From positions 1 through 30,710 of the IMG/VR virus record IMGVR_UViG_3300027801_000104: a stretch of 30,710 nucleotides of DNA; one strand, 5' to 3'. The translations under genes and the position numbers were made by a program. Under the pieces are notes generated by a model. It had not been told where the DNA came from. It did no database searches and was given only the letters and a program-made list of their open reading frames with translations. Positions 2,636 through 29,819 of the stretch are shown here, in pieces. How positions within the stretch are numbered: the first letter of the stretch is position 1; every line of letters starts with the position of its first letter. Source of the DNA: a virus.

Positions 2636-2977
2636 ATGCAATTAAAGGGAAGTATTAAATTAATCAACGAAACGGAAGTAATTTCAGAAAAGTTTCAAAA
2701 AAGATCATTCGTAATCGTAACCGACGAGGAAAAATACCCGCAAGAAATCATTATCGAAACGACTCAAGACAACGTAGACATGTTAGATAATTTTGCGGAA
2801 GGCGAAACAGTAACGGCATCGATTAACATTCGTGGTCGTGAGTGGACCAGTCCAAAAGATGGCACGGTAAGATATTTTAACACTATTCAAGCGTGGAGAA
2901 TTGAAAGCGATTCGAACGCGGCACCGGCTCCGGCAACGGCATCGGCTCCGGCTCCGGCTGAAGATTTACCGTTCTAA
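2636..2977 (+). CDS. DUF3127 single-stranded DNA-binding-like protein
   Basis: 113 residues. The first 85 match DUF3127, an OB-fold family of Bacteroidota and their phages: KRSFVIVTDEEKYPQ, then a VTASINIRGREW strand pair and YFNTIQAWRIE. The linker is made of Ala-Pro repeats and the chain ends EDLPF. That ending copies the acidic tail of bacterial SSB (DDIPF type), which recruits replication and repair proteins. The protein probably coats single-stranded phage DNA made by the exonuclease at 1520 and recruits partners through its tail. The linker is encoded by imperfect GGCTCCG/GGCACCG repeats (about 2920-2958), which may vary in length. The stop is one base before the next ATG (2979). Confidence 0.75.
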   Translation: MQLKGSIKLINETEVISEKFQKRSFVIVTDEEKYPQEIIIETTQDNVDMLDNFAEGETVTASINIRGREWTSPKDGTVRYFNTIQAWRIESDSNAAPAPATASAPAPAEDLPF

Positions 2978-2978
2978 T

Positions 2979-3164
2979 ATGGATAAAATCGGAATCATTG
3001 TCAAGGCAAGGCGTAAAGAATTACGCATGACACAGATCGAAGTAAGTGAATTGGCTAAGGTTGCAAAAAATTCATGTAGACGAATCGAAACGAGCGCGGG
3101 ATATAACATTCGAACCGCTTTAAAGATTTTTTCTGTATTGGGTTTGACTTTTAAAGTAGGTTAA
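2979..3164 (+). CDS. XRE/HipB-like helix-turn-helix regulator
   Basis: 61-residue DNA-binding protein of the XRE (Cro/C1) helix-turn-helix class. ARRKELRMTQIEVSELAKVA (residues 10-29) gives the first helices of the fold, SCRRIETSAGYNIRTALKI the recognition region, and VLGLTFKVG the short C-terminal strand typical of the y4mF/HipB-like subgroup. The frame is open upstream to 2901, but the ATG at 2979, one base after the SSB-like stop, fits the family start and avoids a 77-nt overlap. No HipA-like toxin follows: a terminator comes at once, so this is not an obvious toxin-antitoxin pair. It may regulate the early operon or the divergent late genes. The specificity is unknown. Confidence 0.75.
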   Translation: MDKIGIIVKARRKELRMTQIEVSELAKVAKNSCRRIETSAGYNIRTALKIFSVLGLTFKVG

Positions 3165-3170
3165 TAAATT

Positions 3171-3197
3171 GCGGGGCTGTATTGGTCCCGCTTTTTT
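3171..3197 (+). terminator. Rho-independent terminator of the recombination operon
   Basis: GCGGG, an 11-nt loop, CCCGC, then TTTTTT, beginning 6 nt after the XRE stop codon. Stem strength and T-tract fit an intrinsic terminator for plus-strand transcription starting near 992. It marks the end of the CpG-rich early operon and the start of the CpG-poor accessory block. Confidence 0.8.
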
Positions 3198-3272
3198 ATG
3201 TCAATTAAGTTCTAAAATTAGGTTAAATCAAAATAAAAGGTTTATATTTACGTGTAATTAAAAACTAATAAC

Positions 3273-3407
3273 ATGGAAGACAAAATAAAAGAATTTGAAA
3301 GGTTAATGATGATACATGACGACCTTGATGAAAAAAATAAAAAGATTGAGCGATTGATTCAAGAAAATTTAGATAAAATTAAATTATTAACCAAAAACCA
3401 AAAGTAA
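3273..3407 (+). CDS. Small coiled-coil protein (44 aa)
   Basis: The 44-codon frame starts at the ATG at 3273 and ends at the TAA at 3405. It begins MEDKIKEFERLMMIHDDLDE and is almost wholly helical: heptad spacing of I, L and M with many Lys and Glu suggests a short coiled coil. There are no cysteines and no membrane segment. The AT-rich leader (about 3238-3272) has a TATATTTA that is one base off the flavobacterial -7 element, and a terminator hairpin follows 14 nt after the stop, so it may be its own transcription unit. I do not recognise the family. The flanking signals and sensible codon use support it as a real gene. Confidence 0.5.
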   Translation: MEDKIKEFERLMMIHDDLDEKNKKIERLIQENLDKIKLLTKNQK

Positions 3408-4400: not shown

Positions 4401-4913
4401 TTAAGGCTTAACCAACCCAATCATTTTTTTTGCATACAAGCCCACTAAAAACGCGACCAAATACCACACCCAACCGGACCCGCTTCCGGTTTTAATATTG
4501 CTTTGAAGCGATTCGGTATCGGGACAAATCAGATCCGGACACGGTAACGAAACGGAAACGGTGTCGGTTCTGTATACGTAACGCTCTTTTATAACGATTT
4601 TAGCTTTGTTTGTGGCCTTGTCTACTTTAATCGATACAAGACTATCAGAAAACAATAGTATATTGTTAGAGTCGATTAAATTAGCGTGTATTGTGTCGGA
4701 TTCAATTCGAATTGTATCGTGAACAATTACGGATTCGGTTACAGTGTCGTGTATAGATTTAAAATATTCAGGATATTGTAAAACCGCGAATGAAACACTT
4801 TCTTTAATTCCGTTTTTTTCGATTGCGCGTTTTAATCTTTTTTGAGAACTACACGAAAAAAACAAAAACGATAAAGATAGTATTATAGCTAAAAATTTAA
4901 TTAATTCCTTCAT
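4401..4913 (-). CDS. Putative unimolecular spanin (lipoprotein with C-terminal membrane anchor)
   Basis: With the start at 4913, MKELIKFLAIILSLSFLFFS-C gives a lipoprotein signal with the lipidated cysteine at residue 21 followed by SS, a usual Bacteroidota form. A longer in-frame start at 4952 would bury the signal. Residues 22-145 form a charged periplasmic stretch with repeated HDT/ESDT strands, and about residues 148-166 (WVWYLVAFLVGLYA) form a C-terminal transmembrane helix ending in lysines. An outer-membrane lipid anchor plus an inner-membrane helix in one chain is the design of u-spanins such as T1 gp11, which fuse the two membranes in the last step of lysis. It is the last gene of the lysis cluster and overlaps the DUF5675 gene by 17 nt. 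Function is inferred from topology and place. Confidence 0.6.
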   Translation of the reverse strand: MKELIKFLAIILSLSFLFFSCSSQKRLKRAIEKNGIKESVSFAVLQYPEYFKSIHDTVTESVIVHDTIRIESDTIHANLIDSNNILLFSDSLVSIKVDKATNKAKIVIKERYVYRTDTVSVSLPCPDLICPDTESLQSNIKTGSGSGWVWYLVAFLVGLYAKKMIGLVKP

Positions 4914-25220: not shown

Positions 25221-25487
25221 TTATAACTTTTTTGCAGCGTGATTGATACTAACATACACAGATTTCAGTCTGATCGCGAGCGACCTATCTTCTTTAATAG
25301 CGATTGAAATTTCAGCCGCTAACGTTTCTAATTTTGATTTAAAGTAAGCTTTATCTTTCGCTACCGAACCCGACACGATTAAAGTGTCAAATGTTTCGCA
25401 ATGTTCTGACGGCATCACTTCGCCTTCAATCGGTTTAATCGATTCGGTTTTCTTCTTTGCTGGTCTTCCTCGTTTTTTCTTTTCCAT
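25221..25487 (-). CDS. Small basic protein with AT-hook-like start (88 aa)
   Basis: 88 residues. The N-terminus MEKKKRGRPAKKK contains RGRPA, close to the AT-hook core RGRP that binds the minor groove of AT-rich DNA. The rest is helical (YFKSKLETLAAEISIAIKED, SLAIRLKSVYVSINHAAKKL). It may bind phage DNA or regulate the late operon, of which it is the first gene after the accessory island. A TATATTTG element sits 4 nt before the ATG. CpG-rich codon use marks it as the border of the phage core. Function unproven. Confidence 0.5.
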   Translation of the reverse strand: MEKKKRGRPAKKKTESIKPIEGEVMPSEHCETFDTLIVSGSVAKDKAYFKSKLETLAAEISIAIKEDRSLAIRLKSVYVSINHAAKKL

Positions 25488-25530: not shown

Positions 25531-25554
25531 TAAAAAAAACGCCATTAAAACGGC
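25531..25554 (-). terminator. Intrinsic terminator closing the accessory island
   Basis: Minus strand: GCCGT-TTTA-ATGGC followed by G and eight T residues. A short stem with one G-T pair and a long T-tract. It would end transcripts from the accessory island before the late operon that starts at 25487. Confidence 0.65.
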
Positions 25555-25555
25555 T

Positions 25556-25610
25556 GATAACATTCCACAACAGCAACCCGAAAAGGGCAGCCTGTTATTT
25601 CAATGTTAGC
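25556..25610 (-). repeat. attC-like folded site 1 (left border of island)
   Basis: Read on the minus strand: GCTAACATT, an unpaired GAAAT, AACAG, a GC-rich hairpin head with TTTT loop, CTGTT, an unpaired GTGG, AATGTTATC. TAACATT pairs with AATGTTA (7 bp) and AACAG with CTGTT (5 bp), separated by an internal loop. This R box, unpaired spacer, L box order with AAC facing GTT is the fold of integron attC sites. The primary R-box match is partial (RYYYAAC expected). It follows the stop codon of the 65-aa gene. Confidence 0.5.
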
Positions 25611-25620
25611 ATTAATACTA
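25605..25620 (-). repeat. Cassette trailer element, copy 2
   Basis: GTTAGCATTAATACTA on the plus strand. It is identical to 27109-27124 and near-identical to 3884-3899 read on the other strand. It includes the TAG stop of the 65-aa gene, and its GTTAGC end is the outer arm of the attC-like site at 25556-25610. Confidence 0.6.
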
Positions 25621-25815
25621 CAAATCAAATTCTATCATTGGTCTTGTAATATCAAATGTTTCTTTATCGTGTTGTTGATTAAGCGTAACCTCAATCACAT
25701 CGTATTCCATATAAGCCCTACCTCTTTGGTCTAGGCTTATTTCAGCATCGTATTTATCAAGCAACTCTTGTAATTCCTTTCTAAATTCTTGCTCAATCTT
25801 TTGTTCTTCTGTCAT
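25618..25815 (-). CDS. Small acidic hypothetical protein (65 aa)
   Basis: Start set at 25815 (MTEEQKIEQEFRKELQELLD); the frame is open to 25851 but those codons fall in the leader repeat. The chain is a Glu/Gln-rich helix followed by YDAEISLDQRGRAYMEYDVI and a strand-rich end with an acidic last residue pair. The middle block resembles small uncharacterised phage proteins (eLLdkY.aEI..d..gr.y). No cysteine or membrane segment. It is flanked by a leader repeat (25823-25893) and by a trailer repeat plus attC-like site, the same arrangement as the 27126 gene. Function unknown. Confidence 0.6.
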   Translation of the reverse strand: MTEEQKIEQEFRKELQELLDKYDAEISLDQRGRAYMEYDVIEVTLNQQHDKETFDITRPMIEFDL

Positions 25816-25822
25816 ATTTTTT

Positions 25823-25893
25823 AGTTTAATAATCCGCACTAATGCTAACAAGTATTAATAACAACCAAAAAGGCAGTTATTACACTTATCATT
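25823..25893 (-). repeat. Leader/hairpin repeat copy A
   Basis: 71 nt that differ from copy B (27393-27462) at five positions, one of them a gap. Minus strand: AATAACTGCC, loop TTTTT, GGTTGTTATT forms the core, extended by AAGTG-TAATAAC against GTTATTAATACTT, then GTTAGCATTAGTGCGGATTATTAAAC before the start codon of the 65-aa gene. The loop differs between copies while the stem is kept, as expected if the fold matters. Confidence 0.7.
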
Positions 25894-25905
25894 GCAAAAC
25901 ATAAC

Positions 25906-25918
25906 TAAAAAAAAGCCC
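25906..25918. repeat. Inverted repeat, left arm, flanking the methyltransferase gene
   Basis: TAAAAAAAAGCCC, the exact 13-bp reverse complement of 26676-26688 on the other side of the methyltransferase gene. CATAAC (25900-25905) adjoins it on the outside; the other arm has GTTATG 5 nt outside. On the minus strand the GGGC-T8 tract may also help end transcription. Confidence 0.5.
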
Positions 25919-25925
25919 ACCACTG

Positions 25926-26642
25926 TTATGCGTTTACTCGGTCGGTTGCAATATTAAAATAGTTTTCGTCCATTTCAATTCCTATTCCGTTTCTATTTAA
26001 GTTTTTACAGGCAACTAAAGTACTTCCAGAACCCATTGTAAAATCTAAAACTGTTTCGTTTTCGTTGGTGTAAGTTTTTACTAAATATTCCATTAAATCT
26101 AATGGTTTTTGTGTTGGGTGTAATTTTCCTTTTTGTACACTTGTATTAAACTTCTGTATGGTTGTTGGGTACTTACCTTTTAAAACCCTAGTTTCTCCAT
26201 CGTGGCTAGTCATACTACTACTACCACTTTTACTTGCGTTTTTTCTAGTATATGTTCTTGGTTTTTCTCTTGGTGTAAATTGTGGGTTGTATGTTGTTTT
26301 ACCTTTTCCAAATATACTTATAATTTCGTGATTACTCATAGGTCTATATTTTGCATAACCGTGTCCAACTGGTAGTGTTTTGTGAAATATCCAATCATAT
26401 TTAAAAGATTTTATATTACTCATTCTTAAAGCAGAACTAAAAGGCTCAGAACCAAATAAAACTATTGCACCATTAGGCTTTATAATTCTATTTAATTGCT
26501 CCCACATCAATTCAAAATCAATTACACTATCCCATTTACAGGCAGTAGTTCCGTATGGTGGGTCTGTAATTATTGCATCAATACTATTATCTTTAATTGT
26601 TTTCATAACCTCCAAGCAATTACCTAATCTTAAATCTATCAT
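25926..26642 (-). CDS. Beta-class DNA methyltransferase (N6-adenine or N4-cytosine)
   Basis: 238 residues. TDPPYG (26-31) is catalytic motif IV (DPPY) and LDFTMGSGSTLVA (199-211) is the cofactor-binding motif I; the order IV before I, with HPTQKP (175-180) and GIEMDENYF near the end, defines the beta class. It methylates the exocyclic amino group of adenine (N6) or cytosine (N4) from S-adenosylmethionine. Gly/Ser-rich residues 130-150 may be the target-recognition loop. No restriction enzyme is next to it, so it probably shields phage DNA or marks it. The gene is CpG-poor, unlike the phage core, and lies between 13-bp inverted repeats inside the accessory island. Start at 26642 gives the canonical IDLRLGNCLEVM. 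Confidence 0.9.
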   Translation of the reverse strand: MIDLRLGNCLEVMKTIKDNSIDAIITDPPYGTTACKWDSVIDFELMWEQLNRIIKPNGAIVLFGSEPFSSALRMSNIKSFKYDWIFHKTLPVGHGYAKYRPMSNHEIISIFGKGKTTYNPQFTPREKPRTYTRKNASKSGSSSMTSHDGETRVLKGKYPTTIQKFNTSVQKGKLHPTQKPLDLMEYLVKTYTNENETVLDFTMGSGSTLVACKNLNRNGIGIEMDENYFNIATDRVNA

Positions 26643-26675
26643 ATATTACGCATTTTATTTTTAAACAAAAATAAT

Positions 26676-26688
26676 GGGCTTTTTTTTA
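26676..26688. repeat. Inverted repeat, right arm, flanking the methyltransferase gene
   Basis: GGGCTTTTTTTTA, the exact reverse complement of 25906-25918. It is followed by GCAAC and GTTATG (26694-26699), then by the large attC-like site 26698-26830. It lies in the 5' leader of the methyltransferase gene on the minus strand. Confidence 0.5.
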
Positions 26689-26697
26689 GCAACGTTA

Positions 26698-26830
26698 TGC
26701 AACAACGTGTATAATTTATTGCTACTAATCGCTATTTTACCAAGTTATTTTTATCGTTTATACTATTCTATTATTTATTAATTTCAGTGTCTTATATCGC
26801 AACAAACCATACACAAATAAGTTATGTGCA
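26698..26830 (-). repeat. Large attC-like folded site 3 (133 nt)
   Basis: Minus strand: TGCACATAAC, TTATTT, GTGTAT, a long AT-rich middle with partly pairing GTTGCGATAT and ATAGCGATTAGTAGCAA, then ATACAC, GTTGTTGCA. Outer TGCA and AAC pair with TGCA and GTT, inner GTGTAT pairs with ATACAC. Length and layout recall Vibrio-type attC repeats. It fills most of the 192-nt gap between the 61-aa membrane protein gene and the methyltransferase gene; no other gene is seen there. Confidence 0.4.
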
Positions 26831-26834
26831 ATGG

Positions 26835-27020
26835 CTAAATTATACCGTAATGTTTAAATATCTGCACCATAGCGTAACCAATCACAAACAAAGGCACTAT
26901 CTTACATATTGCCTTTAATATAAATTCAACTAATGCGTTTGGGGCAGTAAAATTCATAAATAATATTAGTGTTGCCATTGCTAATACTGCGAAGTTGTAA
27001 GTTAATTCAATTGTATTCAT
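26835..27020 (-). CDS. Small two-helix membrane protein (61 aa)
   Basis: 61 residues: NTIELTYNFAVLAMATLILF (first membrane segment about 8-22), MNFTAPNALVEFILKAICK as a loop, and IVPLFVIGYAMVQIFKHYGI as a second segment. No signal-peptidase site or charged tail. Such proteins in accessory loci are often toxins, holin-like or superinfection-exclusion factors, but nothing here decides. It stands alone between two attC-like sites (27061-27114 upstream, 26698-26830 downstream), the strongest cassette-like arrangement in the island. CpG-poor. Confidence 0.55.
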   Translation of the reverse strand: MNTIELTYNFAVLAMATLILFMNFTAPNALVEFILKAICKIVPLFVIGYAMVQIFKHYGII

Positions 27021-27060
27021 TTCGTTTCATTTAATAGTTTGTGCTGTTAAAACCGCCAAA

Positions 27061-27114
27061 GCACATAACACGGTATAAAAAACATTAAAACGATTTTTTA
27101 TACAAACCGTTAGC
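27061..27114 (-). repeat. attC-like folded site 2
   Basis: Minus strand: GCTAACGGTTT, GTATAAAAAA, an 11-nt loop, TTTTTTATAC, CGT, GTTATGTGC. The ten-base arms pair perfectly, outer AAC faces GTT, and the bases between are unpaired and unequal on the two sides, like the spacer of attC sites. The right half recurs at 28002-28024 (TTTTTTATATACCGTGTTGTGCTTC). Site follows the stop of the 83-aa gene by 11 nt. Confidence 0.5.
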
Positions 27115-27124
27115 ATTAATACTA
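27109..27124 (-). repeat. Cassette trailer element, copy 3
   Basis: GTTAGCATTAATACTA, identical to 25605-25620. It directly follows the TAA of the 83-aa gene (27126-27128) and forms the left arm of the attC-like site at 27061-27114. Confidence 0.6.
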
Positions 27125-27125
27125 A

Positions 27126-27377
27126 TTATTCGTGCCAATCTGCAATAACTTTACTTCCTTTCATTACACTTATAGTACAAGGTTCTAAATTACTAATAGT
27201 CCCAGTTTCATTATAATCTAAATCTAACCTGTAAATTTCATCAGCAGCTCCACCTACATTGGCGTACACCACTTCTCCTTCTGGTGTTTCACCTTTAAAC
27301 ATAAAAGTATATTTGTAATAATGCCTAAACTTTAGTTCTACATTACCATACTTTTTTAAAATATCTTCTTTTGTCAT
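27126..27377 (-). CDS. Small hypothetical protein (83 aa)
   Basis: 83 residues. TKEDILKKYGNVELKFRHYY is helical then beta; FMFKGETPEGEVVYANVGGA has a Gly-rich turn; LDLDYNETGTISNLEPCTIS and KGSKVIADWHE end the chain. One cysteine, no signal or membrane segment, slightly acidic. I do not recognise a family, though VVYANVGG-type strands suggest a small beta-barrel. The gene stands between a leader repeat (27393-27462) and a trailer repeat plus attC-like site 2, the same arrangement as the 25618 gene although the proteins are unrelated. Confidence 0.55.
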   Translation of the reverse strand: MTKEDILKKYGNVELKFRHYYKYTFMFKGETPEGEVVYANVGGAADEIYRLDLDYNETGTISNLEPCTISVMKGSKVIADWHE

Positions 27378-27392
27378 TCTATTTAATTTTTA

Positions 27393-27462
27393 AGTTTAAT
27401 AATCCGTACAAATGCTAACAAGTATTAATAACAACCTAACGGCAGTTATTACACTTATCATT
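27393..27462 (-). repeat. Leader/hairpin repeat copy B
   Basis: Minus strand: AATAACTGCC, GTTA loop, GGTTGTTATT as core, with outer AATG...CATT and AAGTG...TACTT arms, then GTTAGCATTTGTACGGATTATTAAAC before the start of the 83-aa gene. It contains GTTAGGT, an exact attC R-box match (GTTRRRY). It begins at the stop codon of the 82-aa gene. See copy A, 25823-25893. Confidence 0.7.
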
Positions 27463-27709
27463 ATAAAACACCGCTACAGTCTTCGCACTCTTTCATTAGT
27501 AATTCTGTTGGAAATCTATCTTCTATTTTGTGATTGCATTGGCATTTTATAACATCATCTAAAACACCATTATTAACGCGGTTCATACCAGCTTTAAACG
27601 CCTCTTCAAATATTAAATCAAAGTGAGGGTTGTTTATTCTTGTATATCCATCGTCATCATAAAGTGAACGCCTAATTTCTGTTAATTTACTTTTGCTAAT
27701 TATCTTCAT
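27461..27709 (-). CDS. Small hypothetical protein with Cys-rich end (82 aa)
   Basis: 82 residues. The first 50 are helical and charged (KSKLTEIRRSLYDDDGYTRI, HFDLIFEEAFKAGMNRVNNG); the end has VIKCQCNHKIEDRFPTELLM and CEDCSGVL. CxC and CxxC with a nearby His may form a small zinc site. No known family. It lies 37 nt downstream of the 79-aa gene without a large folded site between them, only a short ATAAC...GTTAT pair, and ends inside leader repeat B. CpG-poor. Confidence 0.55.
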   Translation of the reverse strand: MKIISKSKLTEIRRSLYDDDGYTRINNPHFDLIFEEAFKAGMNRVNNGVLDDVIKCQCNHKIEDRFPTELLMKECEDCSGVL

Positions 27710-27746
27710 CTATTTAATTCGTTAATAACATTGTTTAGTTGTAGCG

Positions 27747-27986
27747 TTATGCTTCATTTAAAGCACGTTTATACATTTCTTCTAATTCATCAAAGAAAGA
27801 TTCTCCTTTTGTTGTCCTCATTGACTTATTGTATTGGTTCACATAAACCACAAAACCATTATCATCAATCCTTTCATAAGTATCAATAACATCTCTACCT
27901 TTTTCTGTATTAGTCCAAGTAATATAAGTCCTTGGTTTTGTTACTGTGAATACTTTCAAATTCTTTACTTGTTGTATAAATTTCAT
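27747..27986 (-). CDS. Small hypothetical protein (79 aa)
   Basis: Start set at 27986 (MKFIQQVKNLKVFTVTKPRT); the frame is open to 28049 but that part lies in the attC-like site at 28002-28054. Middle: YITWTNTEKGRDVIDTYERI; then DDNGFVVYVNQYNKSMRTTK, and a helical end ELEEMYKRALNEA. Basic, no cysteine, no membrane segment. I do not recognise a family. It is the first gene of the CpG-poor island when read in the direction of transcription. Its stop lies in GCATAAC, as does the stop of the methyltransferase gene. Confidence 0.5.
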   Translation of the reverse strand: MKFIQQVKNLKVFTVTKPRTYITWTNTEKGRDVIDTYERIDDNGFVVYVNQYNKSMRTTKGESFFDELEEMYKRALNEA

Positions 27987-28001
27987 GTCTATTAAATTAA
28001 C

Positions 28002-28054
28002 GAAGCACAACACGGTATATAAAAAATTCCGCTTTGCTCCACATTTCATATACT
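28002..28054 (-). repeat. attC-like site 4 (right border of island, left half atypical)
   Basis: Minus strand: TAGTATATGAAAT, GTGGAGCAAAGCGG, AATTTTTTATATACCG, TGTTGTGCTTC. GTATAT pairs with ATATAC. The right half matches that of site 2 almost base for base (TTTTTTATA..CCGTGTT.TGTGCTT), but the expected AAC of the left arm is missing; the sequence there runs into the end of the core-like 28060 gene. CpG density changes sharply here. Looks like a junction between core and island. Confidence 0.45.
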
Positions 28055-28059
28055 AATCA

Positions 28060-28338
28060 TTAATTAAATTCGTCATAATCAAACGATTCAGTATATTCAT
28101 TAATATCGATCGAATCTTTAATCTCATTAATCAATTTCTTTCCGGTCAGTTCCCGCTCGAATTTAACCGACCATAATTCCACCGTTCCGATTTTAATCGC
28201 CTGAACACCTGAAGCGGATTCGGTCCCAAATTCGTGATCAAATGATTCGTCAACTAGTTCGGCTGTGATTTCAAATGTGTAAATGTATTCTTTTCCGTTG
28301 TGGATGAGTTCTTCTTCAAACTGTTTTGTTTTTTGCAT
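28060..28338 (-). CDS. Hypothetical protein at the core side of the island border (92 aa)
   Basis: Start set at 28338 (MQKTKQFEEELIHNGKEYIY): the frame is open to 28437, but a TACATTTG promoter element lies in that stretch (28425-28432) and the added residues do not look like protein. The chain has KEYIYTFEITAELVDESFDH, then VQAIKIGTVELWSVKFEREL and an acidic end (NEYTESFDYDEFN). Mixed alpha/beta, no cysteine. I do not recognise the family. CpG-rich codons contrast with the island genes 5 nt away. It follows the TerL terminator and has its own promoter, so it is expressed apart from the terminase genes. Confidence 0.5.
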   Translation of the reverse strand: MQKTKQFEEELIHNGKEYIYTFEITAELVDESFDHEFGTESASGVQAIKIGTVELWSVKFERELTGKKLINEIKDSIDINEYTESFDYDEFN

Positions 28339-28601: not shown

Positions 28602-29819
28602 TTAGAATGACGCAACGCGATGCCCTGTTTTTTTCAAAAGAAAATCGGCCGCGTATCGTAGCGGATCGATTCGATGATTCCAGTCGTCAATAGCCAGCTT
28701 AGTTTTTTTATCTGAATAAGCGTAGTTATTTAATTCTTTTACGATCTCGGTTGATTCTGGATCGATTATCAATTCGTATTCTAACAGTAATTTAATACCG
28801 GCCGCAATCGAACCCGGTCCCTTTTCAGCTCCTTTAATATTAACGCCGCTTCTTCTAATGTCGTTAATCAATCTCGGTTCCGCTGAATCCGCAATAATTA
28901 AAGTACGCCCGCAATGGAGCTTATTTAGCTCGACTATTTCTTCGGTCGTGTGTTTGTTTCCTGAATAGCATTCTTTTACATAGATTAACTTTCGTTTTTT
29001 ATCTACGCTGATTTGTATTAACGTGGTCGGATCAGGATAAAATCCGTAATCTTGTCCAAAAATAATTTGCCCCGTATCAACAAACGCACCTAGCCGCCAA
29101 TTCTCAAAGATAACGCCTTCGGACTTTTCCAGCCAGCCGCCTAAAATTTGGTGATTGTATTTTTTCGGGTGTTGTGTTTTAATTTGCTCAACACGTTTTA
29201 AAAACGATTCGTCTAGATTATCTATATTGTCAAGGTAGGTCGTGTGAATATATGTTACATCGTTTTTAACTCCATTGAATCCGGGAGCGACTCCGGCTAA
29301 TTCGAAAAACCTTTTGTATATCCAATGCTCTTTCGTTGCCGGATTCAATATAATAATTACGCGGTTCTGAACTCCCTTCGTTCTAATACTTAAATCGATT
29401 TTATCGAACAACGTTTCATCGTGTAGCTCTTCGGCCTCGTCAAGCACCCATGTTGTGATCCCTTGCAATGATTTTAGATTCGCAGTTTGTTCGCCTGATC
29501 CCGTTTTGATTCCTTTAAAAATTACCGTGGACCCGTTCGCAGTGTTTTCGATTTCAGATAATTTTACGTTAAAATAATCATTAGCGTTCAGAATGTCGAT
29601 CTTTTCTGTAAATTCAGGGATGATCGAAATCTTTGCGGATGTCATTGTATACCGTGTGAACAATATCCGTTGTCGTTCCTGGAAGGTTAATTGTGTGTTG
29701 AATAGATTTACACCAAAAGACTTGCCAGAGCCGCGACCGCCAGTGCAAACAAAGTAACGAGTACTTGATGTCCACAACGGCTTAAATTTATCATTTATCT
29801 TTACCGCTTGTAAACTCAA
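28602..29819 (-). CDS. terL: Terminase large subunit
   Basis: 405-residue DNA-packaging motor. TGGRGSGKS (26-34) is the Walker A loop, TTWVLDEAEEL (122-132) holds Walker B DEAEE, and NPATKEH (about 159-165) is the coupling motif. The C-terminal RNase H-like nuclease has GQDYGFYPDP with D257, LIIADSAEP with D311 and HRIDPLRYA with D385, the three metal-binding acids. Length and motifs match the Terminase_3/PBSX XtmB group. The start at 29819 overlaps the small subunit gene by 29 nt. It cuts the concatemer and pumps DNA through the portal at 7981. A strong terminator lies 46 nt downstream, so it is not co-transcribed with the late genes. Confidence 0.93.
   Translation of the reverse strand: MSLQAVKINDKFKPLWTSSTRYFVCTGGRGSGKSFGVNLFNTQLTFQERQRILFTRYTMTSAKISIIPEFTEKIDILNANDYFNVKLSEIENTANGSTVIFKGIKTGSGEQTANLKSLQGITTWVLDEAEELHDETLFDKIDLSIRTKGVQNRVIIILNPATKEHWIYKRFFELAGVAPGFNGVKNDVTYIHTTYLDNIDNLDESFLKRVEQIKTQHPKKYNHQILGGWLEKSEGVIFENWRLGAFVDTGQIIFGQDYGFYPDPTTLIQISVDKKRKLIYVKECYSGNKHTTEEIVELNKLHCGRTLIIADSAEPRLINDIRRSGVNIKGAEKGPGSIAAGIKLLLEYELIIDPESTEIVKELNNYAYSDKKTKLAIDDWNHRIDPLRYAADFLLKKTGHRVASF

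Follow-up and report, generated by a model that had tools for sequence, protein, structure and literature searches.

How do small genes of no common function come to lie between the structural genes of a phage, and which enzyme moves them there? The question is raised by a linear virus contig of the IMG/VR collection, IMGVR_UViG_3300027801_000104 (30,710 bp; hereafter the window), in which an AT-rich block (GC ~0.29-0.32, against ~0.37 in its surroundings) is flanked by the terminase gene (28602-29819) and a conserved gene for an 88-aa protein (25221-25487). A first-pass annotation of this DNA had read the block as an array of integron-like cassettes separated by attC-like folded sites, had noted the lack of an integron integrase and had suggested that a host integrase might fill it. 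The array itself is borne out by a model score, by covariation, by the complementarity of the cassettes' own ends and by a relative in which the same flanks enclose other genes. As to its origin, we favor, with a probability of roughly 0.8, the view that the block is the recombinase-less array of an integron-like system carried by phages of Bacteroidota. With slightly less confidence, we also think it probable that these phages possess an integron class of their own, with a XerA-like recombinase devoid of the IntI domain, mirror-image cassettes and an attI-like point upstream of the recombinase gene, whose cassette pool is separated from that of bacteria by cassette orientation and is the source of the window array.

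The four folded sites initially proposed are all present, on the minus strand, as are the genes. A first viral pattern, TAATGCTAACG..CGTGTTRTGY, had returned no matches because it was too strict. Sites were scored with a covariance model, R1, whose 37 source sites all come from other viral contigs and had been found by pattern from the first examples. The stems of this model covary, with 83 cells changed on both sides as against 39.5 in shuffles, and 88% of its cells are paired as against 27-52% when the partner is slid. When R1, which is tuned to short sites and whose E-values are rough owing to a short calibration, was run on the window with filters off, it recovered attC-type sites well above background at 27058-27119 (66.9 bits, E=9e-14) and 28000-28069 (41.6 bits, E=1e-7), both on the minus strand, with all remaining matches at or below 16 bits. 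To these two sites, lying ~0.9 kb apart, homology adds the long site at 26698-26830, which aligns over 142 nt with an intergenic stretch of the Polaribacter phage Danklef at 84.5% identity, and for which folding energy alone gives no support. The top-scoring site likewise shows 92% identity over 51 nt to positions 30919-30969 of the Polaribacter phage P12002L, beside the methyltransferases of that phage. A distinct subfamily, typified by GTTAGCATT, accounts for the sites near 27430 and 25870; its stem covaries among seven sites from six contigs, with four base pairs showing changes on both sides, and its leader motif is present in five other viral contigs. The leader shared by two window genes (alignment A4) and their identical 16-nt trailer, which is TAGTATTAATGCTAAC, are both real; the GTTAGGT of copy B that had been taken for an R box actually lies in a hairpin tip, and the R'-like box at that site is GTTAGCA. 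The subfamily member at 27408-27470 folds better than 198 of 200 shuffles and is below the R1 threshold (9.7 bits), as is the site at 25550-25615 (10.3 bits). A short junction at 27715-27755, missing from the earlier list, shows no stable fold; it and the one at 25550-25615 are supported more by position and cassette ends than by scores. An Rfam search of the block matched no family, and the stretch 27375-27475 used as a query found no match among named phages.

The two ends of an integron cassette are the halves of one folded site and are therefore complementary across the gene. In the window cassettes, when the bases following GTT are compared with the reverse complement of the cassette's own end at the 60 positions beyond the invariant bases, 41 match, whereas random pairing gives a mean of 23. 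Only 2 of the 720 possible pairings of the ends are as good as that observed, which fits the true pairing plus the swap of two cassettes with common ends. The same complementarity is seen in Tenacibaculum phage JQ, for instance between GTTGGCAGTAGTTAATC and GATTAATTACTGCCAAC (16 of 17 bases). The contents of the block also vary between relatives. Contig L081 retains both flanks (82% and 79% DNA identity) around 1.3 kb of different genes, in which R1 found no site, and L001 has a terminase gene that is 97% identical, yet carries different genes at the equivalent place. Hence, a gene block conserved unchanged in all relatives is excluded; neither this nor the other two outcomes named beforehand as refuting the array, namely an attC score no better than background and flanks absent from other genomes, occurred.

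At the array position of L081 (5467-5670) there is a noncoding stretch of ~200 nt, bounded by AACTCTCCAA and TTGGAGAGTT, which resembles a structured RNA and has no Rfam match, and at the equivalent place in L001 (2617-3021) a pentapeptide-repeat gene with ANLRDADL-type runs is found beside the terminase, where such cargo is unusual. In L084 (9000-10971) one cassette gene occurs twice within ~1 kb with a different site after each copy, as expected of a duplicated cassette. In both JQ (L090, ~2900-3400) and Danklef (L088, ~4440-4890) a single attC-like site (AACGTATAACAAAAGTTA .. TTTTTGTTATACRTTGTTR) encloses two small ORFs between its arms, as though its loop housed a pair of genes.

The site motif is asymmetric (AACG..TTGTATA / TATAC..TGTTR), and its strand can thus be compared with the direction of the genes around it. 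Among 93 unique viral sites, 83 have all scored flanking genes on the AACG-first strand, nine have one flank each way and one, with a single flank, is opposite. In bacterial genomes the sites lie opposite to the genes in all ten unique cases, these ten being the only strict-type bacterial sites available. For the unambiguous sites the contrast is 83:1 in viruses against 0:10 in bacteria (Fisher p=1e-12). Of the phages considered here, those of IMG/VR are predicted viruses, whereas Freya, Danklef, Leef, JQ and P12002L are isolates. Given that the strict pattern matched only two of 400 Flavobacteriaceae genomes, the covariance model was applied to 158 Bacteroidota genomes; 12 had matches, and the orientation of these agreed with the bacterial rule, the exceptions being a few sites with mixed flanks and two in genome G133. 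The two G133 sites that break the rule lie in a prophage-like region with its own recombinase, and the locus is also present in the virus collection (L255, 100% identity). The alignment has G-U pairs on the AACG-first strand (columns 23-58 and 29-53), which would be mismatches on the other strand; hence, the AACG-first strand is the likely folded one. In canonical integrons it is the bottom strand that is recombined, and the folded strand is non-coding. Judged from these sequence comparisons, the folded strand is likely to be the coding strand in phages and the non-coding strand in bacterial genomes, and the window sites, which lie on the coding strand, agree with the phage rule. The prophage-like region of G133 (L252, 7181-13157) further contains, among its attC-like sites, three identical 426-aa proteins resembling group II intron reverse transcriptases, each beside a 74-aa ORF; attC hairpins are known targets of group IIC introns.

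The next question is what enzyme accompanies such arrays. The four bacterial arrays that we read through (L253, L222, L223 and L224) each have a tyrosine recombinase at their head, that of L224 being frameshifted. Homologs from cassette-bearing genomes (L160 and L159) pass the cut-off of NF040815, defined as a "site-specific tyrosine recombinase/integron integrase", and fail that of TIGR02249; a TIGR02249 search of eight host genomes gave nothing above the cut-off. The recombinases beside the arrays lack the IntI-specific region: positions 181-236 of TIGR02249 are skipped, and an alignment of the L253 enzyme to IntI4 (2A3V) leaves chain residues 182-241 without a match, the query having just 18 residues there. 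These bacterial XerA-like enzymes are ~375-400 aa long, with an N-terminal extension, and their phage relatives, which also adjoin arrays, are simple Xer-like proteins of ~270 aa. The array-heading recombinase of Labilibacter sediminis (L165, 1-1776) has a very long frame (591 aa in the stretch, 690 aa reported), with apparent extra sequence before the core-binding domain. A search for the phage recombinase kept 80 viral loci, in which R1 detects 85 sites, all on the coding strand of the recombinase and 83 of them upstream of it, even though more downstream than upstream DNA was searched. In terms of distinct loci with sites, they are upstream in 32 of 32, one of which has downstream sites as well; the relatives L323-L334 showed no R1 sites. 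Neighbors of the recombinase at these loci include the major head protein, helicase, nuclease and RNA ligase of phage families. The genes are read toward the enzyme in phages and away from it in bacterial genomes, whereas the AACG-first strand points at the enzyme in both. Thus, with the polarity of the site to the enzyme constant and the gene direction reversed, it is the gene inside the cassette that is turned round. In a phylogenetic tree a supported branch (96/92) separates the host from the phage enzymes, albeit with long branches. In Danklef (L088, 9190-9645) the recombinase frame beside the array is truncated N-terminally and its array may therefore be frozen; the layout of the array is shared by Danklef_1 and Danklef_5, which hence offer no cassette difference.

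A natural experiment is offered by the Polaribacter phage Freya, of which ten isolates were obtained on one host strain, and whose enzyme was annotated as an integrase and taken as a hint that the phage might be temperate (PMC8776804). Freya_1 and Freya_10 share 43,915 bp without a single difference and are told apart only by a stretch of 4,942 bp just upstream of the integrase gene, comprising twelve extra genes in Freya_10 and nothing in Freya_1. Other sibling pairs differ by one exact indel each over the compared region, of 307 bp (isolates 10 and 9), 902 bp (10 and 8), 472 bp (6 and 5), 842 bp (2 and 1), 902 bp (5 and 2) and 3198 bp (8 and 2). Every breakpoint is on AAC, and one of them, AAC|ACCCCTATAACAACAATAAG, located ~50 bp before the integrase start, is common to all these pairs except isolates 10 and 8. 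This is integron behavior: the changes occur at attI, in exact units, with nothing else altered. As the break falls just after AAC, the site of a phage cassette is at its 5' end, making it the mirror image of a textbook cassette.

These observations can be assembled into a model in which the unit of exchange would be one small gene together with one site that folds as a single strand. A small XerA-like tyrosine recombinase would recombine at the AAC box of the folded strand, where cassettes would be excised and joined, and new ones would be added at an attI-like point just upstream of the recombinase gene. With the coding strand as the folded strand in phages, the site would lie at the 5' end of the cassette and the genes would be read toward the recombinase. 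The window array may have been built in trans by such an enzyme, encoded by related phages or prophages and supplied by a co-infecting phage or a prophage. Phages would probably benefit by quickly swapping small accessory genes with one another, for example methyltransferases that might serve against restriction. Certain points weigh against this model. The window itself has neither a recombinase nor an attI-like point, and two of its seven junctions have weak or no support from model or folding. The sites of Freya itself reach just 27 bits with R1, and the Freya enzyme is therefore tied to the window sites by layout and box rather than by close sequence. The phage enzymes are diverse, with long branches in the tree, and the activity of every phage recombinase considered here is a prediction.

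One alternative is that the block is an ordinary CALIN (cluster of attC sites lacking an integrase), with cassettes taken from a host integron by the host integrase and no phage system involved. Bacterial arrays with the same site family do exist, and a class 1 integrase is able to recombine phage attC sites, five of six in the assayed set; sites of P12002L are among those shown to recombine (PMC9892861), and the P12002L match of the window may or may not be one of these. However, a captured host cassette would retain its orientation, and the bacterial sites lie opposite to their genes where the phage sites lie with them; moreover, the relatives of the window cassettes and sites are in phages, related phages encode their own recombinase beside arrays oriented like that of the window, and the enzymes adjoining such arrays are devoid of the IntI-specific region. 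We therefore consider this origin, which the first-pass annotation had put forward, to be unlikely and not the best reading. The phage recombinase could instead be a lysogeny integrase that merely borders an unrelated hypervariable region, in keeping with its matches to PHROG integrases and with the annotation of the Freya enzyme as a sign of temperate life (PMC8776804). Such an enzyme would not account for indels that all end on the AAC box, most of them at a single position immediately preceding the recombinase gene, or for sites upstream of the recombinase in every distinct locus with matches, and the protein itself is simple and Xer-like (~270 aa); we regard this as highly improbable.

Even less credible is the view of the hairpins as intergenic RNA elements, either terminators or processing sites, spread by homologous recombination. 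It would accommodate the position of the phage hairpin on the transcribed strand and the retention of G-U pairs, but the two ends of a cassette complement one another despite the intervening gene, and in Freya the breaks fall exactly at AAC and nothing else is altered. Bacterial arrays, moreover, keep the same asymmetric hairpin on the other, non-transcribed strand, and on this ground we rejected it. A phage-borne integron-like system with mirror-image cassettes remains the reading that we prefer for the window.

The array as a whole extends from 28058 to 25605 on the minus strand and, on the basis of sites, genes, cassette ends and the flanks shared with L081, comprises six cassettes, with all six genes on the same strand as the sites according to the ORF list. 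Small genes and one methyltransferase gene are indeed present between the late operon and the terminase as first described; of the seven genes then counted, the one at 28060-28338 lies outside the array, leaving six cassettes, five with hypothetical genes and one with an N6/N4 DNA methyltransferase. The array begins with the site at 28000-28069, whose AAC box is degenerate (AAT) and which precedes the first cassette gene (27747-27986, 79 aa), the product of which has no confident Pfam or PHROG match. The short, weak junction CATAAC..GTTATT (27715-27755) follows, assigned from its position between cassettes and from the ends of the first cassette, which are complementary at 8 of 10 bases. Next come the second gene (27461-27709, 82 aa), a site of the GTTAGCATT subfamily (27400-27465) with a covarying stem, the leader motif and a DNA fold z of -2.8, and the third gene (27126-27377, 83 aa). 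The top-scoring attC-like site separates this gene from the fourth (26835-27020), which codes for a hydrophobic protein of 61 aa and whose cassette ends, GTTATGTGCTTTGGC and GCCATTGCACATAAC, are complementary at 13 of 15 bases. After the long site, the fifth cassette bears the methyltransferase gene (25926-26642, 238 aa; PF01555, 2.4e-34), with relatives in many cassette-bearing phage contigs. The sixth site (25840-25930) is again of the GTTAGCATT subfamily, with a covarying stem, a second hairpin, CATAAC..GTTATG, and a fold z of -3.0; it precedes the last gene (25618-25818, ~66 aa), whose cassette ends are complementary at 8 of 10 bases. The terminal site (25550-25615) forms the hairpin TAACATT..AATGTTA with a fold z of -2.0. 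Like the second, third and fourth genes, the sixth codes for a hypothetical protein.

Phages are known to carry stray integron pieces. If the above model is true, a phage-run integron with its own enzyme and cassette pool would represent a novel driving force in phage evolution and a source of counter-defense genes such as methyltransferases, and the cassette contents could be mined for anti-defense functions. It also bears on the need for the additional domain of IntI in folded-site recombination, since host and phage arrays both adjoin enzymes devoid of it. Since the sibling isolates range from zero to several cassettes, the reaction is open to direct testing. New here are the orientation rule, the phage XerA-like recombinase with sites upstream of it and the exact cassette indels of Freya.

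A phage CALIN as such is not new: Qi et al. 2023 reported 17 CALINs in phages, including the closest relative of the present one in the virulent Polaribacter phage P12002L, with two methyltransferases (PMC9892861). The window resembles the latter in being from a phage of Bacteroidota, in its attC-like sites and methyltransferase cargo and in the lack of an integrase; it differs in its genes. P12002L was treated as an integron CALIN recognized by IntI1, with mention of divergent site directions, and that account describes neither a phage recombinase nor a mirror-image cassette pool (PMC9892861). Likewise, no integron was described by the finders of Freya (PMC8776804), and we found no phage-encoded mirror-image integron class in the open-access literature that was searched. 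In common with the canonical integron, defined by IntI, attI and attC, the phage systems have tandem one-gene cassettes, folded sites, complementary ends and a single fixed insertion point. Unlike it, the enzyme beside the related arrays is XerA-like and lacks the IntI-specific region, the phage site is 5' of the gene and on the coding strand, and the window has no IntI; both the IntI additional domain and a folded non-coding strand with the site 3' of the gene are thus absent. The arrays of Bacteroidota genomes (L222, L223, L224 and L253) share with those of phages the site family, a related recombinase and the polarity of the site to it, but differ in that their genes are read away from the recombinase, with the opposite strand folded, and in that their enzyme is longer, with an N-terminal extension. 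Freya (Freyavirus) is similar to the window in having a cassette-like array with AAC boxes in a flavophage and genes on the folded strand, but has a recombinase and an attI-like point adjoining the array, whereas the window has neither: no recombinase was found among its proteins, a TIGR02249 search of them gave nothing and, as noted at the outset, the whole 30,710-bp record contains no integron integrase. By these features the window array is a CALIN, with more than the minimum of two attC-like sites in a span of a few kb, small genes that all run the same way, complementary ends, variable content and no adjoining integrase. Its sites are on the coding strand, as in the mirror-image arrays, and the XerA-like recombinase expected at the array's 3' end is missing from the window while being seen in 32 distinct viral loci; hence, the window is placed as only a CALIN of the mirror-image class.

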